Of a DNA stretch of 64,000 bases, positions 10,826 to 21,903 are shown piece by piece. The stretch spans positions 124,001 to 188,000 of the forward strand of contig JAGYKR010000002.1 of NCBI GenBank assembly GCA_018401375.1, given 5' to 3'. Each line of letters opens with the position of its first letter. Positions within the stretch are counted from its first letter, which is position 1. The stretch comes from Ilumatobacteraceae bacterium (lineage in GTDB: Bacteria; Actinomycetota; Acidimicrobiia; Acidimicrobiales; Ilumatobacteraceae). Under the pieces are notes generated by a model. That model was not told the DNA's origin. It was given only the letters and a program-made list of their open reading frames with translations, and searched no databases. The position numbers and the translations under genes are program-made.

Positions 10826-11303
10826 TGGGAACTTCTCCTCGCAAGCTGTTGAGGATCGCACCCAACAACAGCAAGATCACACCCACATTGATGGCCATAT
10901 CGGCAAAGTTAAAAACTGGAAACCACTGCAGGTCGATGAAATCGACAACTTTGCCTCGCAGCCAGGCTTCACCGCGAAACAGGCGATCGGCGAGATTGCC
11001 CGACGCACCACCGACCACGAGTCCAATCACCATCGGGTGGCCGAGTCCGGAACCTTTGGCCACCGACACGAGTAGCGCCGCAATGACAAAACCCGATACG
11101 ACCGCGATTAACGGACCAAGGTTTTGACCTTGACTGAAGGCCATTCCGGGATTGAAGACCAAGCGCAGGCGCAGGGTCCAGAAGAGGTTGATCGGTCCGG
11201 TATTGAGCGCGTTCAGCGCCCAGTGCTTGGAAATTTGGTCGGCGATGAGAACGAGAACAGCGATCAACACCGACCCACGCAGCGCGCGGGTCGAAATGAT
11301 CAT
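10815..11303 (-). CDS. lspA: Lipoprotein signal peptidase (signal peptidase II)
   Basis: Integral membrane aspartyl protease that removes signal peptides from diacylglyceryl-modified prolipoproteins. It has 162 residues and four hydrophobic segments. The catalytic aspartates are in GNLADRL (Asp106) and FNFADMAINVG (Asp135). The N-terminal ADQISKHWA is also conserved. The start ATG at 11303 overlaps the preceding gene's stop as ATGA. The window contains at least one probable substrate, the GerMN lipoprotein at 47 kb. Confidence 0.95.
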   Translation of the reverse strand: MIISTRALRGSVLIAVLVLIADQISKHWALNALNTGPINLFWTLRLRLVFNPGMAFSQGQNLGPLIAVVSGFVIAALLVSVAKGSGLGHPMVIGLVVGGASGNLADRLFRGEAWLRGKVVDFIDLQWFPVFNFADMAINVGVILLLLGAILNSLRGEVPNDH

Positions 11304-12421
11304 CGCCGACCGATTCCTCCGACCTTCTCCGATACAAGTTCGGTAGCCCACGGAAGGGCCTCGAGACGCTCACGCGGGATCGGACGACCCGAGGTCTTCG
11401 AGTATCCATAGGTACCCACTTGGATGCGCGCGATGGCTTCATCGATCTCGGTGATGGTTTCACGAGCCTGGGCCGACAGGGCCAGATCGCGTTCACGTTC
11501 CACAACCATGGTGTCGCCTTCGCCACCTTCGTCATCAAACTGAACATCGCCCATCTCGGCTTCTTCGATCAGTTGATGGGCCTCATCTTCGAGTCGGACC
11601 GCTTGGCCGAGCAGCCGGGAACGCTCTTCAAGCAGCATTTCCCATTGGGCCTTGAGGAACTTCACATCAAAATCCTTGGTGTAGGCGATGCCGTCCTTGC
11701 TGGTGCCACGCGGGGCTGGGATCTCAAACACCTCCGGGCCCGACCGTGCCGAGGATCCTGTCGGCTTCTTCGCAACCCCGGAGGCCACCAGAGCGGAGGG
11801 TTGTGGAACGGCTTTACCTGTCGGGGCTGCACCAGGGGCCTTTGTGGTAGCGGTTCCGGTCTTCGTCGACCCTGATTTGGGCTTGGCTGTTCCCTTTGTT
11901 ACCGGGACCTTGGTGGGAGCGGGGCCACCGCTCTTGCCAGCTACTGACTTCGCTGATGCTGTTTTCGCTGGCGACTTTTTCACGGGTCCTTTGGCCGCCG
12001 GGGCTTTTTTTGCCGGGGCTTTTTTTGCTGGAGCTCCTTTTACCGGAGCTTGTTTCGCTGGAGCTTTTTTTGCCGGAGCTTTTTTTGCTGGAGCTTTTTT
12101 CACTGGAGCCGCTTTCACTGAGGACTTGTTCGCTGGCTCTTTTTTTGCTGGCCCTTTATCCGCTGGGACCTTTTGTGCTGGCGCCTTTGCAGCGGCCTTC
12201 TTCGGTGGAATCTTGGCCGCCGTCTTCTTCGCTGGCGATTTAACAGCCGGATCTTGTGAGCCCGATCGCTTCGGGGCCGCAGACTTCTTTGCCGATTGCG
12301 ATGTGCTCACTGGGACTGCTTTCTTGGCTGCAGCAGATGATGCCGCAGCTTTCTGGGGGGAGGGCTTTTTGGCCGGGACACCGACCTTTTTAGATGCGGC
12401 AGACTTTTTGGTTGTGGCCAT
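11300..12421 (-). CDS. DksA/TraR-like protein with Lys/Ala/Pro-rich N-terminal tail and no zinc cysteines
   Basis: A 373-residue two-part protein. Residues 1 to about 235 are a very basic low-complexity tail of AKKAPAKK-type repeats, like histone H1 or the tails of mycobacterial HupB. Residues about 250-373 are a DksA/TraR-like coiled-coil domain ending in a zinc-finger-like segment with the family motif GRPIPRERLEALPWAT. The four positions that bind zinc in classical DksA are Tyr/Ser, Ser, Glu and Ser-like residues (YGYSKTSG and ATELVSEK), and the whole protein contains no Cys. It may bind RNA polymerase's secondary channel and nonspecifically DNA or RNA (inference). It lies between ileS and lspA and is coupled to lspA by ATGA. 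Confidence 0.85.
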   Translation of the reverse strand: MATTKKSAASKKVGVPAKKPSPQKAAASSAAAKKAVPVSTSQSAKKSAAPKRSGSQDPAVKSPAKKTAAKIPPKKAAAKAPAQKVPADKGPAKKEPANKSSVKAAPVKKAPAKKAPAKKAPAKQAPVKGAPAKKAPAKKAPAAKGPVKKSPAKTASAKSVAGKSGGPAPTKVPVTKGTAKPKSGSTKTGTATTKAPGAAPTGKAVPQPSALVASGVAKKPTGSSARSGPEVFEIPAPRGTSKDGIAYTKDFDVKFLKAQWEMLLEERSRLLGQAVRLEDEAHQLIEEAEMGDVQFDDEGGEGDTMVVERERDLALSAQARETITEIDEAIARIQVGTYGYSKTSGRPIPRERLEALPWATELVSEKVGGIGRR

Positions 12422-18316: not shown

Positions 18317-19390
18317 TCACTTCAAGAATGAAGGGACATCAAACTCGTCCTCATCGTCTGACTCCAATGGATCCCCGGCGGGAGCCACGAACAGATCATT
18401 GAGGCGGGCTGCAGAGGAACTCGCGAGCGAAGGCGCACCCTCAGTGCGGTCAAAGCCTGCGGCGATCACAGTGACTTTGACCTCATCGCCCATCTCGTCA
18501 TCGATCACGGTGCCGAAGATGATGTTGGCATCTGGATGAGCCACACCATGGATAATCTCCGCAGCAGCATTCATTTCAAACAGTCCCATGCTGGACGGGC
18601 CCGTGATGTTCAGCAGGATTCCTCGTGCGCCGTCGATCGCCGATTCGAGGAGAGGACTTGAAATCGCCGCCTTTGCCGCTGTTACGGCCCGATCGTCTCC
18701 CGATGCCTGTCCGATGCCCATCAACGCTGAGCCGGCGTTGGACAACACCATTTTGACGTCAGCAAAGTCCGTGTTGATCAATCCAGGGGTGGTGATCAAA
18801 GAGGTAATGCCCGAGACACCTTGGAGGAGTACCTCGTCAGCCATCTTGAAAGCGTTCAACACGCTGGTTTTGTCATTGGCCACGCTGAGGAGACGATCGT
18901 TAGGGATCACGATCAAGGTGTCGACCTTCTCCTTGAGCTTTTGGACTCCGGTGTCAGCCTGCACGGAGCGCCGGCGCCCTTCAAACGAAAAGGGACGGGT
19001 CACCACCCCGATCGCCAAGGCGCCTGCGGCCCGAGCAATCTCTGCAATAACCGGTGCAGCACCGGTCCCAGTTCCACCACCTTCGCCAGCGGTGATGAAG
19101 ACCATGTCGGCCCCACGGACCATCTCATCGATCTCGTCGTGGTTCGCTTCGGCAGCGGCGCGCCCCACCTCGGGGTCGCTGCCTGCTCCAAGGCCACGAG
19201 TCAGGTCACGACCGATGTCGAGTTTGACGTCGGCGTCAGACATCAGCAGTGCCTGTGCGTCGGTGTTCACCGCAATGAACTCGACACCTTTGAGACCGGC
19301 GTCGATCATGCGGTTCACGGCGTTAACACCGCCTCCACCGACACCGATGACCTTGATGACGGCGAGGTAATTCTGTGGTGCGCCCATCAT
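18317..19390 (-). CDS. ftsZ: Cell division GTPase FtsZ
   Basis: Tubulin homologue forming the cytokinetic ring. The N-terminal [17 protein letters not shown] and the tubulin signature [16 protein letters not shown] bind GTP; synergy-loop and T7 residues (NTDFADVK) are present. The C-terminal peptide [10 protein letters not shown] is the docking tail for SepF and other partners. I chose the ATG at 19390 (357 residues) because GGAGG lies about 8 bases upstream; a second ATG follows immediately, and an in-frame ATG at 19423 lies inside a tandem repeat. A good promoter candidate lies upstream, so ftsZ can be transcribed apart from ftsQ. Confidence 0.97.
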
Positions 19391-19402
19391 CGGGGACTCC
19401 TC

Positions 19403-19438
19403 CAAGGATTGTGTGAAGAACAAGGATTGTGTGAAGAA
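19403..19438. repeat. 18-bp exact tandem duplication in the ftsZ leader
   Basis: CAAGGATTGTGTGAAGAA occurs twice head to tail just upstream of the ftsZ ribosome binding site. The first copy ends 4 bases before GGAGG on the gene's strand. It creates an in-frame upstream ATG in one copy but appears non-coding. Confidence 0.95.
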
Positions 19439-19635: not shown

Positions 19636-20808
19636 TCATCGGACAGTCACCGTGGCAGTAGACACGTCGATAAAGGAGACCTCTCCGCCGAGGGCCACCG
19701 GCAGCACGGTCTCGAGGCGGACGAGTTTCAACAACAAGTCTGAGGTCGCACCGAAACGGACCTCGATCCGTTCGGCGGTGATGGGATCAAATTCGGGGTC
19801 CTCTTCGTCGGGTTCGCGAGTCGGGTCCACCGTGGCATAGATCGCATCACGGTAGAGATACATGCTGAGGTCGTCGCCATTCGGATCCACCTCAATCGCT
19901 TGGGTCCGGCCCCTCACTGTGACTGTGAGCGCTTGCACGAGTTGGGCGGCACCCACCGGGCCTGGCGGCGTGAACTGCCCGGGCTGGAGCGTCAGTTCTT
20001 CGAGCCCAAACAACAACATGTACGCGATCGGCTGTCCCTCGATCACATCGAGGACCCGGCCCTCTTTGTCGATGACCCGGAACACACCGTCGGCACCTTG
20101 GTAGGTGGCCAACGGGAAGCGTTCCCGGATCTCAATTCTCAGTCCCGTTGGGAAACTGGTGCGAGCACGAGCTGTATCAACCCAAGGAATTTCTTCGATT
20201 CGCTGCTCAATCCCACCGATATCGAGCAGCAGTGTTGTGCTGCCCACAACTTCATCGATGATCTCTGCCAACCTGGTCTGATCGGTGTAAACGGCTCCGG
20301 TGACCACCACGTCATCCTCAGCGATCGAAAACAATGGGGAGCCTAAGATCGCAAGGACCGCCACGAGCCCAAGTAGAAACCCACCACCGATCCCTACCCA
20401 ACGTAACCGGCGCCGACCCTCTGCTCGTCGCACCGAGATCCGACGGGCGCGGAGCCTTGGCTCCATCTGACCGGGACCATCGCGTCCCGATGCCCCCGGG
20501 ACGAAGGCGTCCACCTCTCCCCCATCCACGATCACCACACGGCCCGTCGAGTCCGAGGAGTCCACGGTTGGTCCTGAACCCGACCGGTCCAAGCCCAGTT
20601 CATCCAGATACACCGGATCGGCAAACTCCTCATCGGAGATCGTGATCACCGTGGCCATGGGAGCGGTGGGGTCCAATTCAGGCTCGAGTGGATCAACTTC
20701 GGGCAGATCCAGATCCGGCAGATCCGGCTCCGGCAGATCCGGCTCGGGCAGAACTGCCGGTGATGACCGGCTCGGGCAGAACTGTCGGTGACGACTCTGC
20801 ATCCACAC
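19636..20808 (-). CDS. ftsQ: Cell division protein FtsQ (POTRA domain), frame broken in N-terminal region
   Basis: Bitopic division protein that links FtsB/FtsL to the septal synthase. The frame encodes a Pro/Glu/Asp/Leu repeat (LPEPDLPEPDLPDLD), a cytoplasmic region, a transmembrane segment (WVGIGGGFLLGLVAVLAILG), a POTRA domain (FSIAEDDVVVTGAVYTD to FPLATYQ) and the FtsQ beta domain. The open frame begins at an ATG at 20808, but the first 18 residues are an out-of-frame reading of the upstream segment. The next in-frame ATG (20658) has no ribosome binding site. The natural start coupled to murB (ATGA at 20908) is in another frame; see the adjoining entry. Domain identity is firm, but the N-terminus is uncertain. 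Confidence 0.85.
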   Translation of the reverse strand: MWMQSRHRQFCPSRSSPAVLPEPDLPEPDLPDLDLPEVDPLEPELDPTAPMATVITISDEEFADPVYLDELGLDRSGSGPTVDSSDSTGRVVIVDGGEVDAFVPGASGRDGPGQMEPRLRARRISVRRAEGRRRLRWVGIGGGFLLGLVAVLAILGSPLFSIAEDDVVVTGAVYTDQTRLAEIIDEVVGSTTLLLDIGGIEQRIEEIPWVDTARARTSFPTGLRIEIRERFPLATYQGADGVFRVIDKEGRVLDVIEGQPIAYMLLFGLEELTLQPGQFTPPGPVGAAQLVQALTVTVRGRTQAIEVDPNGDDLSMYLYRDAIYATVDPTREPDEEDPEFDPITAERIEVRFGATSDLLLKLVRLETVLPVALGGEVSFIDVSTATVTVR

Positions 20809-20908
20809 CGAAAGCCGCAGCGAGTTCCGCCATCACCTCATGGCGAATGTCCATCTCTTCGGTGCGGGGCCGAAAAGCCTGATCGCCGTCGGCTCGAGGC
20901 CCGCTCAT
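20693..20908 (-). CDS. Probable true N-terminus of FtsQ in the preceding frame
   Basis: A 71-residue frame starting at ATG 20908, overlapping the murB stop as ATGA in the same way as the other joints of this cluster. It reads MSGPRADGDQAFRPRTEEMD onward to a VDAESSPTVLPEP stretch, then degenerates into a Gly/Ala/Ser run and stops at 20693. The segment CAGTTCTGCCCGAGCCGG occurs twice, 28 bases apart. The first copy reads VLPEP in this frame and the second reads VLPEP in the ftsQ frame. Removing one base between them would fuse the two frames. I interpret this as the beginning of ftsQ separated by a one-base frame change. Confidence 0.65.
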   Translation of the reverse strand: MSGPRADGDQAFRPRTEEMDIRHEVMAELAAAFGVDAESSPTVLPEPVITGSSARAGSAGAGSAGSGSARS

Positions 20909-21903
20909 GCCAGATCCCCCGCACCAACGATGCGGACTTCGCTGCGCAAAGCAATCCCGGTGGCGGCCAAGACGACCTCACGTACGTGTTCAATCAACGC
21001 TCGCACGTCAGCGGCGGTTGCCGACTCCTCGGCCTGAATAAAGTTCGCATGTTTCAAAGACACGACCGCGCCGCCGATCCGGGTTCCTCTCAGACCGCAC
21101 TGGTCGATCAGCTCACCGGCACTCAGTTCGCCCGGGATCGGATTAACAAACACCGACCCACAGTTGTGTCCGCCGGGTTGATGTTCGCGTCGCCATTGGA
21201 CGATCTCGGAGATCTTGGCTGTGGAGTCCTCCACCGAACCCGGCTCGAGTTCCACCGCCGCCGAGATCACCACATCGGTGTCTCGGAGATCTGAACCCCG
21301 GAACCGAAGGCCAAGAGCAGAGCGTTCACGTTCGGAGACCTCCCCAGTTTCGAGGTTAAAGATTTCCGCCGATACGAGAGTCTCGGCCATATCTGATCCG
21401 TGTCCGCCAGCATTCATGCGCACTGCGCCGCCCACCGAACCGGGAACTCCGACGGCCCACTCCATCCCTGTGAGACCCATCGCGGCGCTGCGCCGAGCGA
21501 GCACCGGCAATGCCACTGCGGCGCCGACCCGGAGAACAGTTGAGCCCGGACTCGATGGGGCGGTTAATCGGGGGGTTGTGTCAGCCGAGATCTGCTCGAA
21601 ACCCTCTGCGAGACGCACCGCAATGCCGGGGAAGCCCAAGTCATCGACCAGCAGGTTCGAACCGCGCCCAACCACCAGCACCTCCAGCCCACTGACTCGT
21701 CGTGCCTCTGCTATCAGCCGCAGATCATTGACCGTGCGAGCCTCCACAAAAACCGCTGCCGGTCCGCCGAGTCGATACGTGGTGAGCCCGGCGAGAGAGC
21801 GTTGGACGACAGCCAGATCGCCGAGTACTTCGAGCGCCAGCGCGACCCGGACGGGACTTGGCCCTGCCCCGGTGATCTCTGACCCGTCGCTCATCTCGGT
21901 CAC
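20905..21903 (-). CDS. murB: UDP-N-acetylenolpyruvoylglucosamine reductase
   Basis: FAD-dependent enzyme that reduces UDP-GlcNAc-enolpyruvate to UDP-MurNAc in peptidoglycan precursor synthesis; 332 residues. It shows LTTYRLGGPAAVFVEA, the FAD motif VVGRGSNLLV, GVPGSVGGAVRMNAGGHGSD, RREHQPGGHNCGSVFVNP with the catalytic Ser in GSVF, and the C-terminal LRSEVRIVG with the conserved Glu. It overlaps murC by ATGA at its start and the ftsQ N-terminal frame by ATGA at its end. Confidence 0.96.
   Translation of the reverse strand: MTEMSDGSEITGAGPSPVRVALALEVLGDLAVVQRSLAGLTTYRLGGPAAVFVEARTVNDLRLIAEARRVSGLEVLVVGRGSNLLVDDLGFPGIAVRLAEGFEQISADTTPRLTAPSSPGSTVLRVGAAVALPVLARRSAAMGLTGMEWAVGVPGSVGGAVRMNAGGHGSDMAETLVSAEIFNLETGEVSERERSALGLRFRGSDLRDTDVVISAAVELEPGSVEDSTAKISEIVQWRREHQPGGHNCGSVFVNPIPGELSAGELIDQCGLRGTRIGGAVVSLKHANFIQAEESATAADVRALIEHVREVVLAATGIALRSEVRIVGAGDLA

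Follow-up and report, generated by a model that had tools for sequence, protein, structure and literature searches.

The split ftsQ of an Ilumatobacteraceae genome is probably one ordinary gene with its frame interrupted in a linker repeat

Why does the division gene ftsQ appear in two pieces, in two reading frames, in a genome of the family Ilumatobacteraceae? We analyzed a 64,000-nucleotide stretch (the window) of that genome, an assembly of 47 contigs (2.23 Mb, 90% complete) that is the sole member of its genus found. An earlier sequence-only reading had offered three causes: an assembly error, a recent mutation with internal re-initiation, or programmed frameshifting.

The 5' part of ftsQ and its main body are in different frames. 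All of the genes concerned are on the minus strand. murB occupies 20905-21903 in the ORF list, and a murB query also finds the murB that adjoins ftsQ in relatives. murB ends in an ATGA, a 4-nt overlap with a frame that begins at an ATG at 20908. This ATG opens a frame of 71 codons (frame A, 20693-20908) that contains the motif EVMAELAAAF (VMAELAAAF at 20810-20836 in a motif scan), continues as an out-of-frame tail and ends with a TGA at 20693-20695; its assignment as the 5' part of ftsQ comes from the sequence, the ORF list, coding score and motif conservation. The FtsQ body lies within an ORF from 20808 to 19636 that is one base off frame A. This second frame (frame B) is open from 20832 to 19636, beginning 72 nt past the murB stop, and has candidate starts at GTG 20808, ATG 20802 and ATG 20658. 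From 20751 to 19636 it encodes an acidic DLPEP linker, a second conserved stretch (VITISDEEFADPVYLDE), a membrane segment and the POTRA domain, as assigned by Pfam, coding score and an alignment of relatives (A1). The split was thus as first described, with the frame from 20908 ending at 20693 and the membrane and POTRA part in the other frame. The accompanying claim that all other joints from murE to ftsQ are short overlaps or gaps was borne out in the mechanical ORF list for the neighboring upstream joints. Scanning for promoters and terminators yielded no useful result.

The protein is identified as FtsQ by comparison with known families. The window protein matched POTRA_1 (PF08478; E = 3.3e-11), and the A1 profile matched six solved FtsQ chains (best E = 3.3e-08). 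There was no match to PF03799 (FtsQ_DivIB_C) in the window protein or elsewhere in its own genome, and in two relatives the match was weak, yet over the cut-off. FtsQ matches were found in 55 of 61 genomes and in 205 of 221 genomes of the family, with the source genome counted in both.

The coding signal changes frame at a tandem repeat. We scored codon usage in 45-nt steps, with 36 other window ORFs as the training set. Frame A led in the steps that begin at 20908 through 20773, and frame B led from the step starting at 20758, indicating that the switch falls at a 28-bp tandem pair at 20739-20794. The maximal coding segments ended at 20795 for frame A and began at 20751 for frame B, and the last third of frame A lost its coding signal.

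The tandem pair is not a chance likeness, and its two copies are read in different frames. The upstream copy (20767-20794) is coding in frame A and the downstream copy (20739-20766) in frame B. The copies, located by repeat and 18-mer searches, are ungapped and 26/28 identical (period 28 and 93% in Tandem Repeats Finder); the best match among 2000 codon shuffles of a 300-nt stretch was 19/28. The 18-mer previously noted as duplicated occurs exactly twice in the genome (20739-20756 and 20767-20784), with the similarity extending to 28 bp, and VLPEP is indeed read once per frame: frame A gives SSPTVLPEP and frame B gives SSPAVLPEP. The two differences between the copies, each taken in its own frame, are one silent change and one T/A replacement. 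Because the copies differ at two of 28 positions, a fresh slip of 28 bp would be a less simple account than an in-frame repeat of older date to which a one-base offset was added later, but these two differences are only suggestive. Next to the pair, Tandem Repeats Finder reported a 15-bp array (20702-20752), which frame B reads as DLPEP repeats. Where the frame switches, the sequence contains no long run of a single base. Elsewhere in the window, a 15-bp repeat array is also found in a 373-codon ORF (11300-12421, minus strand). Its matches to families of the extensin-like and histone H1-like types are weak and under the curated cut-offs, and the strand opposite to it has a coding score as well.

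Repeats are common in the linkers of intact relatives. Tandem arrays were present in the linkers of 16 of 48 relatives, and the period was divisible by three in 22 of 28 array rows and not in the other 6. Since such periods occur inside linkers that are intact, a period of 28 is by itself no proof of an insertion. The linker repeat of the window was not conserved among the relatives in A1.

In relatives, ftsQ is a single continuous frame that includes the peptide encoded by frame A. A first comparison set consisted of 50 relatives, from loci returned by searches. In 39 of the 50, FtsQ has a VLDEL..AF-type motif close to its start and in its own frame, and in none of the 50 was the motif out of frame; the window alone has its version, VMAELAAAF, out of the FtsQ frame. 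The 11 relatives without the motif include two whose loci start at contig ends (L002 and L020) and two with fused genes (L025 and L030) in which the motif lies beyond the 120 residues searched; a longer search found it in both. The motif pattern arose in 31 of 100,000 shuffles of the frame A protein. We then used a wider set of 94 distinct loci from the family and the order, including the window and after dropping 14 duplicates. Of the 79 relatives from the family or near it, 64 carried the motif, as [VAI]L-D/E-EL..AF, in the FtsQ frame; none of the 14 loci representing other families in the order did. Of the 68 relatives with separate genes and a placeable murB stop, 65 have an FtsQ frame that opens no later than that stop. 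In the three exceptions it opened 13 nt (L028), 12 nt (L029) and 54 nt (L045) after the stop, and L028 and L029 still keep the motif in frame. Of 46 placeable relatives, 30 have their nearest start in a 4-nt overlap with murB, as at 20908.

These comparisons bear directly on where FtsQ begins. A single continuous frame in relatives had been set beforehand as a test of the split, and that is what we found. The alternative set beside it, a start at 20658 with an unconserved upstream frame, did not hold: it is frame A that is conserved, and by eye the other 12 rows of A1 all lack a Met at the column of 20658. A long-standing downstream start of ftsQ is likewise unsupported. Judging from this conservation, frame A is the true N-terminus of FtsQ, and the start of ftsQ would be the ATG at 20908, in translational register with the end of murB through coupling to its stop. 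The EL..AF motif is predicted to be cytoplasmic and is perhaps a candidate binding peptide for a division partner. As a separate observation, the N-termini of L012, L016, L018, L040 and L049 share a second short conserved stretch after the motif (FDDPSIDRLLG or close variants). It seems to have a loose likeness to the FtsZ end peptide, as found at the end of the window's own ORF at 18317-19423, which we take to be FtsZ-like.

All of the relatives available for comparison are from other genera. A genus search returned only the source genome, with no same-species or same-genus copy. Searching genome contigs with the window protein gave no relative, and searching them with the A1 profile found 18 loci, 38-49% identical, the majority of which were already in the set. 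There was no near-identical copy of the locus in genome contigs or in viral contigs (zero hits in a viral pattern search).

In one group of relatives, murB and ftsQ are a single stop-free reading frame with the motif between the two domains. This was the case in 22 of 22 loci (L025, L030 and L059-L078, from genera g4, g6 and g9), 20 of which (L059-L078) had been selected for long open frames. The order is MurB, a linker with the EL..AF motif, a membrane segment and POTRA; the MurB and FtsQ matches are separated by 100-223 residues, and Pfam identified domains of both proteins in both of the fused loci tested. The motif was inside the linker and in one frame in all 22, and that of L025 (DVMAELHDAF) is close to EVMAELAAAF of the window. 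Finding the motif in the fused linkers adds to the case for assigning the frame A peptide to FtsQ. When 94 FtsQ sequences were placed in a tree, those from fused genes formed one side of a branch with support of 98/88. We found no description of a MurB-FtsQ fusion in the literature searched; the available portions of two papers describe neighboring genes and a transcript, not a single protein (PMC3762067, PMC4324946). Such a fusion would connect the divisome with a cytosolic enzyme of wall-precursor synthesis. We believe that the family-wide FtsQ motif and the MurB-FtsQ fusion clade are better leads than the split of ftsQ.

We believe that the window contains one ordinary ftsQ, interrupted in a linker repeat, and that the offset is likeliest an error of consensus or assembly, with a probability of roughly 0.6. 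A single ancestral frame would have been thrown off by a net one base inside the tandem repeat of the variable cytoplasmic linker, and the extra base would most likely be a mistake in the assembled consensus, made where the sequence is repetitive and rich in G+C, and absent from the cells. This is the simplest explanation of the split and calls for no new mechanism. Two of the three causes first offered, error and recent mutation, are supported by the continuous frame in relatives, which argues against the third. The second-ranked explanation is a real recent mutation, in which frame A is translated to 20693 and translation re-initiates at ATG 20658, 35 nt downstream of the frame A stop, or starts from GTG 20808 or ATG 20802, to give an FtsQ without the motif. 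It takes the sequence as deposited and uses starts that exist, and a body made from 20658 would keep the second conserved stretch, the membrane segment and POTRA. The branch of the window's FtsQ body is not unusually long (0.51, compared to 0.55 for its sister L004). In a crude overlap screen of 164 kb of the contig, six of 90 same-strand pairs reached 25 nt; the ftsQ overlap was the largest (59 nt, followed by 38 nt), and there was no larger break in the rest of the 164 kb. This suggests that the assembly is not generally indel-rich, leaving room for a real mutation, and together with the lack of a long single-base run it keeps a real mutation with re-initiation at 20658 as a less likely alternative. 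Against a real mutation, no purine-rich ribosome site is visible by eye before 20658, 20802 or 20808, but there is a GGGGGA 6 nt before 20908; a Met at 20658 is peculiar to the window in A1; and the mutation would cost a motif kept in most of the family. If the break is real, the locus would be a test of whether the N-terminal motif is dispensable. Improbable in our view is the stronger proposal of a real and fixed break, with re-initiation in the linker, or slipping between frames at a low level, as the only source of FtsQ, a lineage that lives without the motif kept by most of its family, and division that is perhaps tuned by slippage of the repeat.

Programmed +1 frameshifting could join frames A and B in an essential division gene: the two overlap by approximately 140 nt with an offset of +1, and the upstream repeat copy contains CCC-G, a slip-prone type of step. 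We consider it very unlikely, given that no relative has the motif out of frame as a two-frame gene would, that the stop of frame A is in the context AGT-TGA, and that the linker repeat is not conserved. Least probable of all is that murB and ftsQ are separated by a small independent gene, frame A. Frame A is an intact ORF with its own start, but it has no Pfam or NCBIfam match, its coding signal is lost toward the end, and its motif is part of FtsQ in relatives and of the MurB-FtsQ linker in the fused genes; we count this explanation as refuted by the in-frame relatives.

The locus can be compared to three known arrangements. Programmed +1 frameshifting of the prfB type uses overlapping frames offset by +1 and a CTT-TGA stop context. 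The window is similar in its overlapping frames and their offset, and is different in that its two-frame arrangement is not conserved and its stop context does not match. According to a report on Vibrio fischeri, ftsQ was among the essential genes that were split in version 1.0 of the sequence and fused by frameshift correction in version 2.0 (PMC2330054), and another report indicates that many purported pseudogenes are assembly errors (PMC11017572). As in the window, ftsQ in version 1.0 of the V. fischeri ES114 sequence was two ORFs separated by a frame change and was a single gene in a relative (PMC2330054). There the error was proven by resequencing (PMC2330054), whereas the break in the window sits in a tandem repeat and is known from the assembled sequence alone. 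The third is FtsQ/DivIB of Ilumatobacteraceae, with which the window shares the 4-nt overlap with murB, the EL..AF motif, an acidic variable linker, the membrane segment and POTRA, and from which it differs in that their frame is continuous and its own is broken.
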